Source of the DNA: Methylophilus methylotrophus DSM 46235 = ATCC 53528
Lineage (GTDB): Bacteria > Pseudomonadota > Gammaproteobacteria > Burkholderiales > Methylophilaceae
DNA length: 64,000 bases
NCBI RefSeq assembly: GCF_000378225.1
Contig: NZ_KB905141.1
Location: 357,143 to 421,142, forward strand
Reading direction: 5' to 3'
This document shows positions 2,886 to 9,404 of this stretch, piece after piece. A program made the translations under genes and the position numbers. Within the stretch, counting starts at the first letter, position 1. Every line of letters starts with the position of its first letter. Below the pieces are notes generated by a model, which saw only the letters and a program-made list of their open reading frames with translations, was not told the origin of the DNA and ran no database searches.

Positions 2886-4301
2886 CTAAACGGAAATGCC
2901 GTGTTTATCCATGCGGTAGCGCATGGTCATGCGGGTGATTCCCAGCAATCTAGCCGCTTTGGAGACATTATTACGAGACTGCTCTAATGCATTGAGTAGC
3001 ATGGCCTTTTCTGCGCCATCGAGGGTCACCGGTGCATCTACCTGTGCGACTGGATTGCCATTGACTGCCGCCATTTGCGGCAACCCCAGATCATGCTCAG
3101 AGATCATGGCTTGCGTACACATCAACACAGCACGGCTGATTTGATGCCGCATTTCACGCACATTGCCAGGCCAGTGGTAACTTTGGATTGCCATCAGTGC
3201 CAAGGGGCTAAATTCATGATGCGGCAAGGCATAACGTTTTTCTGTCATCTGACGGAAATAATTGGCCAGTAACAATACATCCTGGCCGCGATCACGCAAT
3301 GGCGGCATCTGCATAGTGATGACATTTAAACGGTAATAAAGGTCAGAACGGAAACGACCTTCACTAGACATCTGGTACAAATCTCGATTGGTTGCCGCAA
3401 TAATACGTGCCTGAACAGGACGCTCTTTGGTCGAACCCAGGCGCCGTACCATTCTGCGTTCCAGCACATTAAGTAATTTTGCCTGCAAGCCCAGAGGCAG
3501 CTCGCCAATCTCATCCAGAAATAAAGTCCCGTCTTCGGCCGACTCAATCAAGCCAGGACGGGAAGCCACTGCATTGGTAAAGGCACCCTTCTCATGGCCA
3601 AACAGTTCGCTTTCAATCAACTCAGCTGGTAAGGAGGCGCAATCGACGTGTACAAAAGGCTTGTCATGATTGGCACAGTTAGCGTGTAAGTAACGGGCGA
3701 CGACATCTTTCCCTGTACCTGTTTCGCCAGTAATCAGTACAGTTGGCTGGACCGCATCACTGAGTGCGCTCAGTTGCGCAATTCTGGTAATTTGCTGACG
3801 CACGCTTTGCATGGCAGCACTTTCACCAATCAGTTGCACCGATTCATTCACGATCGTATCTCGTTGCCGGGAATAATCTAGGCTGGCCTGTAAATCAGTG
3901 GTTTTTTCGTTTTTTTGGATAATGAGCAACAACTCTTCAAGATCAATGGGCTTCTTTAAGTAATCAATCGCCCCCAGTTTGATGGCGTTGACGGCATCAG
4001 TCACATCGCCAAAGGCAGTCATCACGATAGTATTAATATTTCTTGCAACAAAATCAGACAATAAATCCAGACCATTACCATCCGGCAAGCGCATATCCAG
4101 TAAGGCCATGTCTGGTTCAAATTGCTTGACCAGCAATCTGGCATCTTGCAAAGACTCAGCGTGCTCGCACTCGAATCCGGCTTTCTGCAAACGCTTGACT
4201 ACCGCTTTTGCAAATAACACCTCATCCTCTACCAACAGAATTTTTTTCTTGAATGGCAGAAAAACAGATTTGTCCGTGGATGATGAGAGTTGTGAAAGCA
4301 C
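2886..4301 (-). CDS. Sigma-54-dependent response regulator (NtrC family: REC, AAA+, Fis-type HTH)
   Basis: 471-residue enhancer-binding protein. A receiver domain (residues ~19-135) has the acidic pocket EDE, phospho-acceptor Asp69 in ALLDMRLPDG, Thr95 and Lys117. The AAA+ domain has Walker A GETGTGKD (192-199) and Walker B GTLFLDEIGE (~258-267). The C-terminus ends in a Fis-type helix-turn-helix (NNVSKAARLLGITRMTMRYR). The sigma-54 contact loop reads GAFTNA instead of the canonical GAFTGA. The start is GTG with AAGGGA upstream. The gene begins 17 bp after the TonB receptor stop and is probably cotranscribed with it. No histidine kinase is adjacent. I infer that it activates the sigma-54 promoter ahead of the receptor. 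It could instead be a global regulator of the PrsR/AtoC type. Confidence 0.95.
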   Translation of the reverse strand: MLSQLSSSTDKSVFLPFKKKILLVEDEVLFAKAVVKRLQKAGFECEHAESLQDARLLVKQFEPDMALLDMRLPDGNGLDLLSDFVARNINTIVMTAFGDVTDAVNAIKLGAIDYLKKPIDLEELLLIIQKNEKTTDLQASLDYSRQRDTIVNESVQLIGESAAMQSVRQQITRIAQLSALSDAVQPTVLITGETGTGKDVVARYLHANCANHDKPFVHVDCASLPAELIESELFGHEKGAFTNAVASRPGLIESAEDGTLFLDEIGELPLGLQAKLLNVLERRMVRRLGSTKERPVQARIIAATNRDLYQMSSEGRFRSDLYYRLNVITMQMPPLRDRGQDVLLLANYFRQMTEKRYALPHHEFSPLALMAIQSYHWPGNVREMRHQISRAVLMCTQAMISEHDLGLPQMAAVNGNPVAQVDAPVTLDGAEKAMLLNALEQSRNNVSKAARLLGITRMTMRYRMDKHGISV

Positions 4302-4318
4302 GCCTGGTCCCTTTTATA

Positions 4319-6757
4319 TTAGTCGTTATCGTAGCTAGCTAATGATTGCTTAGGTTTGAACTCGTAACGCACGCCAACCCAGGCTGCACGCGGTGCGCCA
4401 GGCAACAGGCTCAACACTTTGCGCTCTTCATCAAAGTTACCATTGTTATCAAACAGGCTCTCAGCTAAACGGCCAGCGATGTAATAGTCTTTGTCAAAGA
4501 TATTGGTCGCTTTGGCAAACATTTTCCAGCCGTTACCAAAGTTGTACTGGCTATCCAGGTTAACGATAAAGTAGCCACTCAGTTTACCGCGACCAGTTGC
4601 GCAATCATCTCCGTTATTACAATTCGCCGAGTTGGAACGATGGCTGTTATTTTCGTTACCATAAACAAACTGATCAGAATAACCGATGACATTCGCACCT
4701 ATATTCCAACTAGGTGTTACAGCAAATTGACCACGCAACTTCAGCTGATGTTGTGGTATCGCAGGTATTCTGTCACCTGATCTGGCTGTATAAATACCAT
4801 CGGCGTTACCTGTAGCATTTGAGGCATTGACGAATTCAACATCGGTGTCATAAGTCGCATGCACAAAACTATAAGATGCGTTCCATTTAAAGCGATCAAT
4901 CACTCCATTCAGGCCTAGATCTATACCTTCACGTTTGGTTCTACCTACATTTTTAAAATAGCCTGCACCAGTCTGGGTATTGGCAGCCGTAAATTGGATA
5001 TCATCATGGTTAACCGCATGATAAACACCAGCATTCCAGAATACATTGTCTGTCAATTGACCACGTCCACCAAACTCATACGTTTTAGCAACCACTTGAT
5101 TCAAAGGCGGATCATCTGCAAGTGCAGCTGGCAACAGACAAGGAGAGGCCGGATTAGAGCAACCTACTTCAATTGCGGTTGGCGCGCGGCTGGACTCACT
5201 GTACGACGTGTACACGGTGAGTGCTTTAGTGGGTGTATAAGTTAAACCGACAGTAGGATTCAGGCGTGTGTAACTATCTTTTGCAGTTAAGCTATTGAAG
5301 TTATTGGCCGCTGATGCCGGGCCTCGCAATGTATCAGTGTTGTCGATACGAGTGAAATTCCAGCTGGCGCCTGCGTTCAGATGCCAAAATTCGTTCAATG
5401 ACAATGTATCAGTCGCGAATAAACGGGCTGTGTATTGCTTGCCGGTCAGGCCCGTGGTCTGGCGTTGAGGTAACGCACCCGCCCCGTCCAAAACAGGTGC
5501 GCGGGTATCGTCAAATACAGGATCACTTTCACCGACACCGACCACGGTACCGTCAATATCCCCGATATTGATTTGCTCTGACTGTCTGAATCGTATTAAG
5601 CTGTAATCATATCCAGCACCGACTACGAACTGGTTTTCTTTGCCGAATAAATCTTGATTGAAGGTTGCCTGACCAGTTGCACCATAGGTATTTTGGCTGG
5701 TATGTGTACGATTCATTACAGCACCAGTCAACTCACAATCAGCAGGATCATTACAAGTTACTCCAGGATAGCCAGCCAAAGTATCCCCGTCATCCACTTC
5801 AGCCTCATATCCATCACCATTTTTTGTTCTACGGTTAGATTTTTTGTAATAAATGTTCCCAGACAGCATAGTGTCATTATTCAGCCAGTGACTTCCATTC
5901 AAAGCCAGGAAGTGTGAGTAATTGTTGGTCGCATCTGGTCTTGTATGAATCTGGTCACGATCACCGCTCAATAAAAACTCCGGTGTTAAACCGTTACCAA
6001 TCAGAGTGTTATCTGCACCTATGTAAGTTAAATCCAGCTTGGTGGTTTCGTTTTGCCATCCGGTTTTTGCAAATAACTGGTTCACATGCGATGGTGAGTA
6101 TTTTCTCCAGCCATTTTCAGTCGTATGCTGGAAACCAATCATGTAATCAACTGAGCCATCCTTTGACACACCACCGTACTCAGCTAAGGCACGTTGACGA
6201 CCCCATGAGCCTGCTTCGTACTCAACGGCCGCACCCTGATTGTCTCGACCGCTCTTGGTCTGTATAGCAATCGCGCCACCCAATGTATTCAAACCAAACA
6301 ATGGATTTGAGCCTGGAATTAATTGCATGTTGCCAATCGCGAAACTGGGGATTTTGTCCCATGAAGTCACATCGCCAAATGGTTCATTAACACGCACGCC
6401 ATCAATATAAGTTGAAAGACCTTGTGGATTACCCAACAATGAAGAAGCAGAATAGCCACGGAAATTAATTTCTGGCTGCCAAGGGTTACCACCCAACTCC
6501 GTAACCGTCACGCCTTGCATATTGTTATTCATATAATCTGCAATAGAAACACCGGTTTGGTTATTAATTGCAGCAGGATTAGCCATCTGAATATTGGCTG
6601 GCACCTTGTGAAGTGGTACACCTATCCCCTTTAATGGAGTAGTGCTATATACCTCAACTTTTTCCAGATTTAATGAGTCAGCTTTAGCAATAGCCACCTC
6701 TGCAGCATAAGCAGATACGATGGCCAGGACTAGAGGCTTGATTGTATTTTTTTTCAT
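4319..6757 (-). CDS. TonB-dependent outer-membrane receptor
   Basis: 812-residue TonB-dependent transporter. It has an N-terminal signal peptide (MKKNTIKPLVLAIVSAYAAEVAIAK), a short TonB-box-like segment (LEKVEVYST), a plug domain with INFRGYSAS, GLSTYIDGVRVNEPFGD and GLNTLGGAIAIQTKSG, then a long beta-barrel ending in AWVGVRYEF and a short polar tail. The substrate cannot be read from sequence; siderophores, metals or organic compounds are all possible. The context is unusual: a sigma-54 promoter and enhancer-like repeats lie upstream, and a sigma-54 activator gene follows 17 bp downstream. This suggests expression on demand in response to a specific signal. Confidence 0.93.
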   Translation of the reverse strand: MKKNTIKPLVLAIVSAYAAEVAIAKADSLNLEKVEVYSTTPLKGIGVPLHKVPANIQMANPAAINNQTGVSIADYMNNNMQGVTVTELGGNPWQPEINFRGYSASSLLGNPQGLSTYIDGVRVNEPFGDVTSWDKIPSFAIGNMQLIPGSNPLFGLNTLGGAIAIQTKSGRDNQGAAVEYEAGSWGRQRALAEYGGVSKDGSVDYMIGFQHTTENGWRKYSPSHVNQLFAKTGWQNETTKLDLTYIGADNTLIGNGLTPEFLLSGDRDQIHTRPDATNNYSHFLALNGSHWLNNDTMLSGNIYYKKSNRRTKNGDGYEAEVDDGDTLAGYPGVTCNDPADCELTGAVMNRTHTSQNTYGATGQATFNQDLFGKENQFVVGAGYDYSLIRFRQSEQINIGDIDGTVVGVGESDPVFDDTRAPVLDGAGALPQRQTTGLTGKQYTARLFATDTLSLNEFWHLNAGASWNFTRIDNTDTLRGPASAANNFNSLTAKDSYTRLNPTVGLTYTPTKALTVYTSYSESSRAPTAIEVGCSNPASPCLLPAALADDPPLNQVVAKTYEFGGRGQLTDNVFWNAGVYHAVNHDDIQFTAANTQTGAGYFKNVGRTKREGIDLGLNGVIDRFKWNASYSFVHATYDTDVEFVNASNATGNADGIYTARSGDRIPAIPQHQLKLRGQFAVTPSWNIGANVIGYSDQFVYGNENNSHRSNSANCNNGDDCATGRGKLSGYFIVNLDSQYNFGNGWKMFAKATNIFDKDYYIAGRLAESLFDNNGNFDEERKVLSLLPGAPRAAWVGVRYEFKPKQSLASYDND

Positions 6758-6815
6758 AAAGTAATGTCCCTTTTCCCGAAATACTTTTATTTTGATTTAA
6801 AAAGCACTTCTACTG

Positions 6816-6831
6816 AGCAATAACCGTACCG
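6816..6831 (-). promoter_or_regulatory. Sigma-54 (-24/-12) promoter of the TonB receptor gene
   Basis: Read on the minus strand the sequence is CGGTACGGTTATTGCT, matching the consensus TGGCACG-N4-TTGCT with the invariant GG and GC exactly 10 bp apart. The predicted transcript start is near 6805, about 48 nt ahead of the receptor ATG. The site overlaps a 17-bp palindrome, ATAACCGTACCGGTTAT (6820-6836). The neighbouring sigma-54 activator gene supports the call. Confidence 0.72.
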
Positions 6832-6882
6832 GTTATGGCCACCAAAAAAAGATCATTAAAATCAATTAATTAAAATAAGGAC

Positions 6883-6952
6883 TGGTGGATATAAACCACA
6901 AAATTGGTTATATACAACCAATTTTATGGTTTAAAGTGGTTTATTACAACCA
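6883..6952. promoter_or_regulatory. Three palindromic enhancer-like sites upstream of the sigma-54 promoter
   Basis: Three 16-bp copies of a TGGT-N8-ACCA palindrome lie at 6883-6898 (TGGTGGATATAAACCA), 6905-6920 (TGGTTATATACAACCA) and 6937-6952 (TGGTTTATTACAACCA). They sit about 80-150 bp upstream of the predicted start site, the usual distance for NtrC-type upstream activating sequences. The middle copy is embedded in a larger inverted repeat with 16-bp arms (6894-6909 and 6916-6931, one mismatch). The last copy ends 3 bp before the tilS stop codon. Confidence 0.65.
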
Positions 6953-6955
6953 GAA

Positions 6956-8401
6956 TTACAAAGGGGTAAGGAAAATTTCTAAGCCGTAAGCATTACGGCC
7001 TGGACGCCAGGTATGATCGACCGCCAGCCCAGCTAAAGCAACTAGTGATTGAGAGGAAACTGGTTGAGTCGTTTTGACCTGAACAACAGGATAAAAAGCG
7101 CGCTGCCAGGGAGGCACTGCCAGCATCTGGAAAATAACTTTTAATTCACGCCTTGGCCGCTTGGCATCTGGTTGCAAAGCTTCGCCACCCCCACGTGGCA
7201 TCAACAACAATTCGATCCCCTCAGGTAATGGGAGAGGCTGGCCATAACGCTTATTTAAGGTGATAGCGGCTGGAGAGATACCAAGCCTGGCCAAGGCGAT
7301 ACCGCGTGCTTTGCTGACCTTGAACTGAACTTGCCACTCGCCCCACACCTGGCTTTGGTGGCCTTGCCAAATGAGCGGCGTTTGCGGTAGGGCTGCAGGT
7401 TTGCCAACGCAGTATAAGCGCTGCTGGTAATGATGCAGGTAAGCCTTATGATGTTGGGTTTGACCCTGCAATGGCAGATGCAAATATCGATGCGGCTTCA
7501 CAGAGGAAAGCTGCTGCCAGTAATCCTGCAATTGTTCACTATTGGGCATACGCAAATTCAGTTGCTGAAACCAGAAGCGTAACAAATTCTTGGCGCGCAC
7601 CTCGCCAAGGGCGTATAACCGTGAAATATCCAGAGACTGACCCAGCCACTCACCCCGGACATCGCACGCCTGTAGATCCTGATACGCAAGCGTATCCAGC
7701 AAGGTTTGTGCTTCTGCCAGATGAGTGGCGCTCCTCAATAAAGCATTATCCAGCTGCGGGTAACGCTCACGCATGACAGGCATGACCTTCTGCCGCATAA
7801 AGTTACGGTCATAAGTCACATCGGTGTTACTTTCGTCTTCAACCCATGTCAGTTGCTGCTCAGATGCATATTGCAACAACTCGTCCTTGGACACCGTCAA
7901 TAGCGGCCTGAGCAAATGCCGGCCTATATCCCACTGTCCCATGGCACTCAAGCCTTTGACGCCTGCACCACGCATCAATTGCAACAGCAGGGTTTCGGCC
8001 TGATCCTGCATATGATGTGCGGTCAGAATGGCGGATGCAGAGTGTTGCTGGCGTACGCGCTCCAGTGCCTGGTAACGGGCATCCCGCGCCGCTGCTTCAA
8101 TGCCCAGCCCACTTTGAGCGCTCACATGCACTTTTTCGCTATAAAACGGAACATTGCGCTCCAGGCATAACCGTTCGCATAAATGCAACCAGCTATCTGC
8201 ATTGGGGCTCAACCCATGATGCACATGCATCGCCGACAAGGTAAATGGCAACTGCGTTCGCAGCAGCACCAATGCATGTAGCAATACAACAGAATCAACA
8301 CCGCCACTCAATGCTAGCAGCAGATGTGGTGATGGCGAAGGTGAGACAGCATTTTGGCCACGAAGAAAAGTCGCAAGGACGTTTTCCAGTGTGGCCAGCA
8401 T
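6956..8401 (-). CDS. tilS: tRNA(Ile)-lysidine synthase
   Basis: 481-residue PP-loop ATPase that modifies C34 of tRNA-Ile(CAU) to lysidine, so that AUA is read as Ile. The ATP-binding motif SGGVDS lies near residue 33, followed by HVHHGLSPNAD, AHHMQDQAETLLLQLMRG and RPLL. The C-terminal third matches the usual substrate-binding extension, including the block with PPWQRAFYPVV. An ATG at 8401 is preferred; a GTG at 8419 would overlap the accA stop codon by 11 bp. No clear ribosome-binding site supports either, and translation may be coupled to accA. Confidence 0.95.
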   Translation of the reverse strand: MLATLENVLATFLRGQNAVSPSPSPHLLLALSGGVDSVVLLHALVLLRTQLPFTLSAMHVHHGLSPNADSWLHLCERLCLERNVPFYSEKVHVSAQSGLGIEAAARDARYQALERVRQQHSASAILTAHHMQDQAETLLLQLMRGAGVKGLSAMGQWDIGRHLLRPLLTVSKDELLQYASEQQLTWVEDESNTDVTYDRNFMRQKVMPVMRERYPQLDNALLRSATHLAEAQTLLDTLAYQDLQACDVRGEWLGQSLDISRLYALGEVRAKNLLRFWFQQLNLRMPNSEQLQDYWQQLSSVKPHRYLHLPLQGQTQHHKAYLHHYQQRLYCVGKPAALPQTPLIWQGHQSQVWGEWQVQFKVSKARGIALARLGISPAAITLNKRYGQPLPLPEGIELLLMPRGGGEALQPDAKRPRRELKVIFQMLAVPPWQRAFYPVVQVKTTQPVSSQSLVALAGLAVDHTWRPGRNAYGLEIFLTPL

Positions 8402-8408
8402 GAAGGAA

Positions 8409-9404
8409 CTATTTTTCACTGGCTGTTTTGAATTTACCGTAACTCATCAGGCGCTGGTAACGTGATTCCAGCAACTGCGGCAATTTTTTGGCTTGTAGCG
8501 TTTTAAGTTGCTGGCCGATGGTTTGACCAACACGTTCCATCACCTCTTCGTAATTGCGATGAGCGCCACCCAGTGGCTCACTGACGATAGTGTCTACCAA
8601 GCCCAGCGACTTCAGGCGATCTGCAGTGATACCCAGCGTTTCAGCAGCATCCGGTGCTTTACTGGCGCTTTTCCACAAAATGGATGCGCAGCCTTCAGGT
8701 GAAATCACAGAGTAAGTTGAATATTGCAACATGTTCAAGTGATCCACCACACCTAAGGCCAGCGCGCCACCTGAACCGCCCTCACCAATCACCACACCAA
8801 TAATGGGTGTTTTCAACTCGGCCATGACATAGAGGTTACGCGCAATCGCCTCGGATTGGCCTCGCTCTTCTGCACCGATACCTGGATAAGCGCCGGGAGT
8901 ATCAATGAAGGTAATGATAGGCATGTGGAATTTTTCAGCCAGACGAAACAATCGCAAGGCTTTGCGGTAGCCTTCTGGACGAGGCATACCGAAATTACGG
9001 TATTGGCGCTCTTTGATATCACGGCCTTTCTGGTGGCCCATCACCATCACCGGAATGCCTTTAAAACGCGCAATGCCTCCAACAATGGCTGGATCATCGG
9101 CATAGGCACGGTCACCATGCAATTCCTGGAAATCGGTGAATAAGGCATTGATGTAATCAATGGTATAAGGACGTTGAGGATGTCTTGCGACTTGGGAAAT
9201 TTGCCAGGCTGTCAGGCTCTGGTAAGTATCTTGCAACAGCTTACTATTCTTCTTTTGCAGCAAATCCAGCTCTTTGGAAATATCCAGTGAATCATGTTCA
9301 TCATGTGAAACCTGAAGGGCTTCAATTCGCTTCTCGAGTTCAGCAATAGGCTGCTCAAAATCAAGATAAGTCAGTTTACTAGGCGTTAAACGTTTTGCAC
9401 TCAT
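8409..9404 (-). CDS. accA: Acetyl-CoA carboxylase carboxyltransferase subunit alpha
   Basis: 331-residue subunit that, with AccD, transfers CO2 from biotin to acetyl-CoA to make malonyl-CoA for fatty-acid synthesis. The family start [16 protein letters not shown], the block [35 protein letters not shown] and [11 protein letters not shown] are all present. The ATG at 9404 has GGA 9 bp upstream and is preferred to a TTG at 9416. The gene lies between dnaE and tilS on the same strand. The order dnaE-accA-tilS is common in beta- and gammaproteobacteria. Confidence 0.97.

Follow-up and report, generated by a model that had tools for sequence, protein, structure and literature searches.

Probable sigma-54 control of the receptor promoter

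How a methylotroph controls the synthesis of one TonB-dependent receptor, and which ligand that receptor serves, is the question raised by a locus in a 64 kb stretch of the Methylophilus methylotrophus genome (hereafter the window; the whole genome comprises 2,858,882 bases). On the minus strand, a TonB-dependent receptor of 812 aa (4319–6757) is encoded 17 bp ahead of an NtrC-family response regulator (RR) of 471 aa (2886–4301), and the receptor gene is itself preceded by three palindromes and a GG-N10-GC element of the −24/−12 type. A sequence-only reading of this stretch had proposed sigma-54 control of the receptor by its neighbouring activator, a proposal that the sequence comparisons below support well. 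Beyond that, and with all of the evidence being comparative, we lean towards regarding the receptor–RR pair as the output of a two-component sigma-54 circuit for uptake in support of lanthanide-dependent methanol oxidation of the XoxF type.

The −24/−12 element CCGGTACGGTTATTGCT occupies 6832–6816 on the minus strand, with GG at 6830–6829 and GC at 6818–6817, and matches 11 of the 13 consensus positions, with a predicted start near 6805; it lies where the sequence-only reading had placed it. Upstream, 53–122 bp from the GG, are the promoter-proximal palindrome TGGTGGATATAAACCA (6883–6898), the middle palindrome TGGTTATATACAACCA (6905–6920), and the promoter-distal palindrome TGGTTTATTACAACCA (6937–6952), all written for the plus strand. 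These three fit TGGT-N8-ACCA exactly over 6883–6952, as had been claimed, and the accompanying distance of 80–150 bp holds only when counted from the predicted start. The pattern occurs six times in the 64 kb, three of them clustered within 70 bp, whereas 100 shuffles gave 1.02 on average and always fewer than six. A scan for sigma-70 promoters gave no excess over shuffles.

Both kinds of element recur in relatives. Palindromes are present at 28 of 30 related receptor promoters, yielding 71 sites with at most two mismatches and the consensus TGGTTGTATACAACCA, and their spacing is mostly 22 or 32 bp, about two or three DNA turns. Within −130 to −40, a −24/−12-like score of at least 9/13 is reached at 28 of the 30 promoters versus 39 of 334 control open reading frames (ORFs), and a score of at least 10/13 at 23 of the 30 versus 10 of 334, the controls each having at least 150 aa and being taken from the first 48 loci of the RR-homologue fetch. 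Two genomes (G050 and G052) have neither palindrome nor −24/−12 element, and the RR is also missing from them among the matches listed; the G041 stretch consists of 100 bases only and is uninformative. A second, overlapping set comprises 81 loci (7 + 74), of which 48 receptor rows were counted after exclusion of receptors without an N-terminus or with less than 200 bp upstream; some of its genomes occur twice (L114 and L249) or are shared with the 30-promoter set. Here the palindrome score exceeds 12 at 44 of 44 receptor promoters with the RR in the locus, five of them with receptor and RR divergent, and at none of the four without it. The sequence-only reading was to be given up if the sites were not conserved in relatives; that comparison was run, and conservation was found.

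Since seven sites, distributed over both strands of the window, reach a sigma-54 score of 11, CCGGTACGGTTATTGCT by itself says little, and these equal scores are what a chance origin of the palindromes and the GG-N10-GC element has in its favour. Conservation in relatives argues that both are more than chance; together with the control ORFs and the window shuffles, it leaves this explanation practically no credibility and rules it out for the palindromes. Two points tell against the circuit as a whole: several relatives that lack the RR retain the receptor (among the matches listed), and the counts are not independent trials because the genomes are related. In support of control by the neighbouring activator, palindromes and −24/−12 elements track the RR, are missing where it is missing, and have a matching sigma factor available, with an RpoN domain in all eight genomes searched, that of M. 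methylotrophus among them. Receptor homologues at E ≤ 0.001 are found in at least 52 of 61 genomes.

The RR contains the Pfam domains Response_reg, Sigma54_activat, and HTH_8, corresponding to a receiver, an AAA+ sigma-54 domain, and a Fis-type helix-turn-helix, in agreement with the NtrC-type activator gene that had been read 17 bp downstream of the receptor. In all 79 aligned rows, position 69 is an aspartate. The contact loop in the window is GAFTNA, not the canonical GAFTGA; the 79 rows comprise 51 GAFTNA, 25 GAFTGA, 2 GAYTNA, and 1 GAFTSA, shares that are biased by the fetch pattern HEKGAFTN. As far as the available text of the NorR study goes, the G266N variant, a GAFTNA-type change, is still able to make open complexes and escapes the repression that the regulatory domain exerts (PMC2941729). 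In NCBIfam, the RR stays under every equivalog cut-off among the 25 families shown; PrsR, the PEP-CTERM response regulator (TIGR02915; 381 versus a cut-off of 502.6 bits), and AtoC (NF008469; 382.8 versus 714 bits) were rejected as identities. The best RR identity among the matches listed is 96%, and the nearest named relatives belong to Methylophilus.

Receptor exchange within a conserved locus

As judged from sequence identities, the receptor gene is replaced between species at a fixed place, with the RR nearly constant and the flanks alike. Across 20 genomes (190 pairs), 36 pairs have RRs at least 94% identical, and their receptors are at most 60% identical in 22 and at least 80% identical in 14. 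The reverse, receptors at least 94% identical with RRs below 90%, is found in four pairs. In one comparison (G000 and G009), the RR and purT are each 96%, accA 95%, and tilS 78% identical, with the receptor at 53%. Each of the receptor types A, B, and C is a single group in the receptor tree; placed on the RR tree, they require 5, 4, and 2 changes, and on the purT tree 4, 3, and 2. When only well-supported branches are considered, the minimum falls to 2, 1, and 2 (RR) and to 1, 1, and 1 (purT), so the identity table is the stronger evidence for replacement. In these trees, the purT bootstrap is not settled, two genomes fall outside the receptor types, and the G015 branch is long.

The reading order on the minus strand is tilS, the three palindromes, GG-N10-GC, the receptor, 17 bp, the RR, a hairpin, and purT, with tilS (6956–8419) and purT (1539–2735), both identified by Pfam and synteny and both on the minus strand, forming the conserved upstream and downstream flanks. 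The hairpin (2846–2873), which stands between runs of A and T, resembles a terminator for the receptor–RR unit; a terminator scan requiring a loop of 3–8 bases did not list it, its loop being two bases. In four Methylophilus genomes (L092, L093, L095, and L096), the RR is followed by an ORF of 189–211 aa, the C-terminal end of which resembles a PEP-CTERM sorting signal. In addition, relatives without the RR (L091, L108, L119, and L120) have a LuxR-type response regulator and/or its kinase near the receptor, and homologues of this regulator and kinase lie 12 kb from the locus in M. methylotrophus itself (L121:2306–4296).

Candidate kinase and further palindrome sites

In the Methylophilaceae loci examined, no kinase adjoins the RR. 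In a genome of another family (G040), an RR paralogue directly follows a histidine kinase, and the pair is situated between two dehydrogenase genes of the pyrroloquinoline quinone (PQQ) type. Furthermore, among 23 loci with a 51–56% identical RR, the kinase is directly upstream in 21, the other two being cut by contig ends. The kinase occurs in 33 of 42 genomes, including all 30 with the RR, and nine have neither (RR among the matches listed); the three with the kinase and no intact RR are G005 (88% complete), G049 (76%), and G044, where the RR is in two pieces. The M. methylotrophus kinase gene is located at C6:101668–103140, and its product resembles AtoS and ZraS most in NCBIfam, under their cut-offs.

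The surroundings of this kinase gene are well defined. tonB is directly upstream in 23 of 23 fetched neighbourhoods, and xoxF is situated about 6–8 kb away in the 20 that reach that far, three ending earlier. This xoxF reads DEWDYDG in all 18 neighbourhoods showing the region, including the M. methylotrophus gene (C6:110247–112157). The second D of DEWDYDG is the extra metal-binding aspartate, a mark of lanthanide use. A related XoxF of the same genome (C1) has the lanthanide XoxF 6dam as its best solved match, and the MxaF-like gene reads DEWDFAG. A palindrome scoring above 16 lies 79–94 bp before tonB in four of the 23 neighbourhoods (G001, G011, G016, and G046) and in none of the other 19. 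Upstream of the DEWDYDG xoxF at C5:122916, by about 90–110 bp, a sigma-54-like site matches 12/13 positions (about C5:122809–122825, L311), with no palindrome of at most one mismatch. The sequence-only reading had pointed to a particular nutrient and an unidentified kinase that senses it; a candidate kinase and a context of lanthanide- or PQQ-dependent methanol oxidation can now be named, and the nutrient we only infer.

A lanpepsy-like gene at C1:533339–533959, about 2 kb from a xoxF gene, encodes a protein with two PepSY stretches, the best solved match of which is 9vy3 ("Propeptide, PepSY amd peptidase M4", E 1.6e-47); our guess is that 9vy3 is lanpepsy. Of 30 lanpepsy-like genes scanned, with one partial match (L170) left out, 15 have an upstream palindrome score of at least 18, several of them being near-copies, versus 3 of the 334 control ORFs, two of which diverge from a receptor promoter; a further four lanpepsy-like genes score 12–18. 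In G052, G024, and G040, a lanpepsy-like gene and a receptor of this family are found in one locus. In three distant genomes (L284, L285, and L296), such a gene is in the same locus as the kinase–RR pair, and in L284 and L285 it directly precedes RND-efflux-like genes, with a poly-Asp run in one such L285 protein. On the plus strand beside the M. methylotrophus lanpepsy-like gene, L177:9014–9151 (C1:533013–533150) combines two palindromes with a sigma-54-like site; they face a stretch in which no ORF reaches 100 aa, and perhaps drive a small RNA or a small gene.

Similar sites are also present elsewhere in the genome. Apparent extracytoplasmic function (ECF) sigma/FecR/large TonB receptor operons (L178:6869–12349, L179:3682–9119, L180:4289–9656, and L187:1–3884; Pfam was run on L178) have TGGYTG-N4-CARCCA-like upstream sites, and L180 additionally has a strong −24/−12-like site; sigma-54 above ECF-controlled receptors would be odd. 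Apparent Flp/tad pilus promoters (L181:5529–5641 and L181:17588–18164; C1 ~788.5 and 800.6–801.2 kb) combine similar palindromes with sigma-54-like sites. These FecI-type operons and Flp/tad promoters, with good palindromes and some −24/−12-like sites, were left aside as regulon members and may belong to another activator. The bare TGGT-N8-ACCA was set aside as a regulon marker as well, being too noisy (116 matches versus 74 for the reversed pattern, among the matches listed). Such sites, and the at least 32 matches to NtrC-type proteins in the genome, would suit an arrangement in which another NtrC-type regulator reads the receptor palindromes and the adjacent RR has different targets. Against this, the palindromes at the receptor track the RR, in 44 of 44 versus none of four promoters and in 28 of 30, the exceptions again being G050 and G052, which makes such an arrangement very unlikely.

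Ligand and proposed circuit

The receptor has the Pfam domains Plug and TonB_dep_Rec_b-barrel, and its predicted model, of moderate quality only, contains the barrel and a poor plug, with a mean predicted local distance difference test (pLDDT) score of 63.2 and residues 1–167 below 50. Outside the Methylophilaceae, pqqC is found in five of five receptor carriers (E < 1e-50) and in none of 18 non-carriers over the cut-off, one of which has a weak match (among the matches listed). This co-occurrence links the receptor with quinoprotein metabolism but does not distinguish between a lanthanide and PQQ. We regard a lanthanide or a lanthanide chelate as the probable ligand, a preference based on three features: the carriers outside the family can make PQQ, since all have pqqC; the receptor varies strongly; and the palindrome is found ahead of lanpepsy genes.

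PQQ, the organic cofactor of XoxF, is the main rival ligand because PqqU/YncD of E. coli (PDB 9c4o, 6v81) is the nearest solved relative; the same circuit would then retrieve PQQ that leaks from the periplasm. A single receptor sequence gave no match to solved structures at 0.001, and a profile search ranked PqqU/YncD first (E 8.1e-31, next 1.7e-16), as did Foldseek with the predicted model, narrowly (1.6e-28 versus 3.2e-27). Identity to PqqU/YncD is about 17–18% in the fold alignment, and unlike that system the organisms here combine pqqC with the sigma-54 arrangement. The joint occurrence of receptor and pqqC also suits PQQ import; but the carriers outside the Methylophilaceae are PQQ makers, receptor types as divergent as these are easier to reconcile with a ligand that varies than with a constant one, and the palindrome stands before lanpepsy genes, so that PQQ import appears rather unlikely. 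Distinctly less probable is the same circuit for another metal or metallophore, such as iron or copper, with a coincidental xoxF neighbourhood. It would agree with the best NCBIfam model of the receptor, TonB-siderophor (120.2 versus a cut-off of 223.5), and with the distant kinase–RR operons, which by reading of their sequences are situated among cytochrome b561, transpeptidase, and efflux-like genes. The conserved tonB–kinase–xoxF neighbourhood, the lanpepsy sites, and the pqqC co-occurrence speak against it.

Besides the profile and fold matches to PqqU/YncD, several observations weigh against a lanthanide circuit. The PQQ dehydrogenases flanking the kinase–RR pair in G040 do not show the DEWDYDG motif, and no xoxF of the reference set occurs within the fetched stretches of the 23 distant kinase–RR loci. 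xoxF was set aside as a direct RR target, no palindrome with at most one mismatch being found upstream of the three DEWDYDG genes of M. methylotrophus. No site scores above 12 at 11 of the 30 lanpepsy-like genes, some of these being second copies or distant homologues, and since no convincing −24/−12 element was found in the lanpepsy upstream regions, the RR, if it acts there, would work in another way. Finally, the palindrome may not be exclusive to this RR, because the Flp/tad and FecI-type operons carry similar ones.

The proposed circuit is a new combination of known parts. NtrC/AtoC/ZraR-type sigma-54 systems share its RR domain order, its sites upstream of −24/−12, and a kinase near AtoS/ZraS; here, however, the target is an uptake receptor, the kinase is unlinked in the Methylophilaceae and placed behind tonB, and the loop is GAFTNA. 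LanA and LutH, within the accessible text of PMC12482762, are likewise TonB-dependent receptors of methylotrophs with lanthanide methanol oxidation and a proposed role in lanthanide entry; likened by description, the difference is that here a sigma-54 promoter and an NtrC-type RR form one unit with the receptor. PedS2/PedR2 and MxcQE/MxbDM, in the sections available of PMC11845868, also exert two-component control over lanthanide/calcium alcohol oxidation physiology, but are tied to dehydrogenase genes, whereas here a sigma-54-type RR would act, by its sites, on a receptor. The same sections report two two-component systems of M. flagellatus with levels unchanged with lanthanum (PMC11845868). 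Lanpepsy of Methylobacillus flagellatus, as partly available (PMC11845868, PMC12482762), has its counterpart in the similar M. methylotrophus gene with a palindrome upstream, which lies outside the window locus and may be regulated by the RR. The literature searched contained no description of this receptor–RR sigma-54 circuit, and nothing was found there on sigma-54 together with TonB-dependent receptors and enhancer binding proteins.

In the proposed circuit, the membrane histidine kinase, whose gene lies at another locus close to xoxF and follows a tonB of its own, would sense lanthanide or cofactor status and, as co-occurrence and the operons of other lineages suggest, phosphorylate the window RR. 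Footprinting across relatives suggests that the RR would then bind the two or three palindromes and open sigma-54 RNA polymerase at −24/−12. By gene order, this promoter would read through the receptor into the RR, and the activator would therefore raise its own level. The receptor and TonB would bring the lanthanide, probably chelated, across the outer membrane. With less confidence, the RR might also act on lanpepsy and on the tonB–kinase operon of a few genomes.

A broader and more tentative proposal, to which we give somewhat less than even weight, is an undescribed rare-earth starvation regulon, in which the kinase, made with its own TonB beside xoxF, reports the lanthanide supply, the activator, its contact loop naturally altered to GAFTNA, turns on an outer-membrane lanthanide receptor and adjusts lanpepsy, and the receptor is an exchangeable cassette. 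If this is true, the switch is retained from species to species and only the receptor type is traded, presumably to suit different lanthanide chelates; nature would thereby have provided an experiment on recognition by outer-membrane receptors. A sigma-54 activator over a TonB receptor is unusual, and the locus offers a complete testable circuit of kinase, regulator, sites, promoter, and receptor, which bears on how lanthanides may be detected and acquired in the Methylophilaceae.

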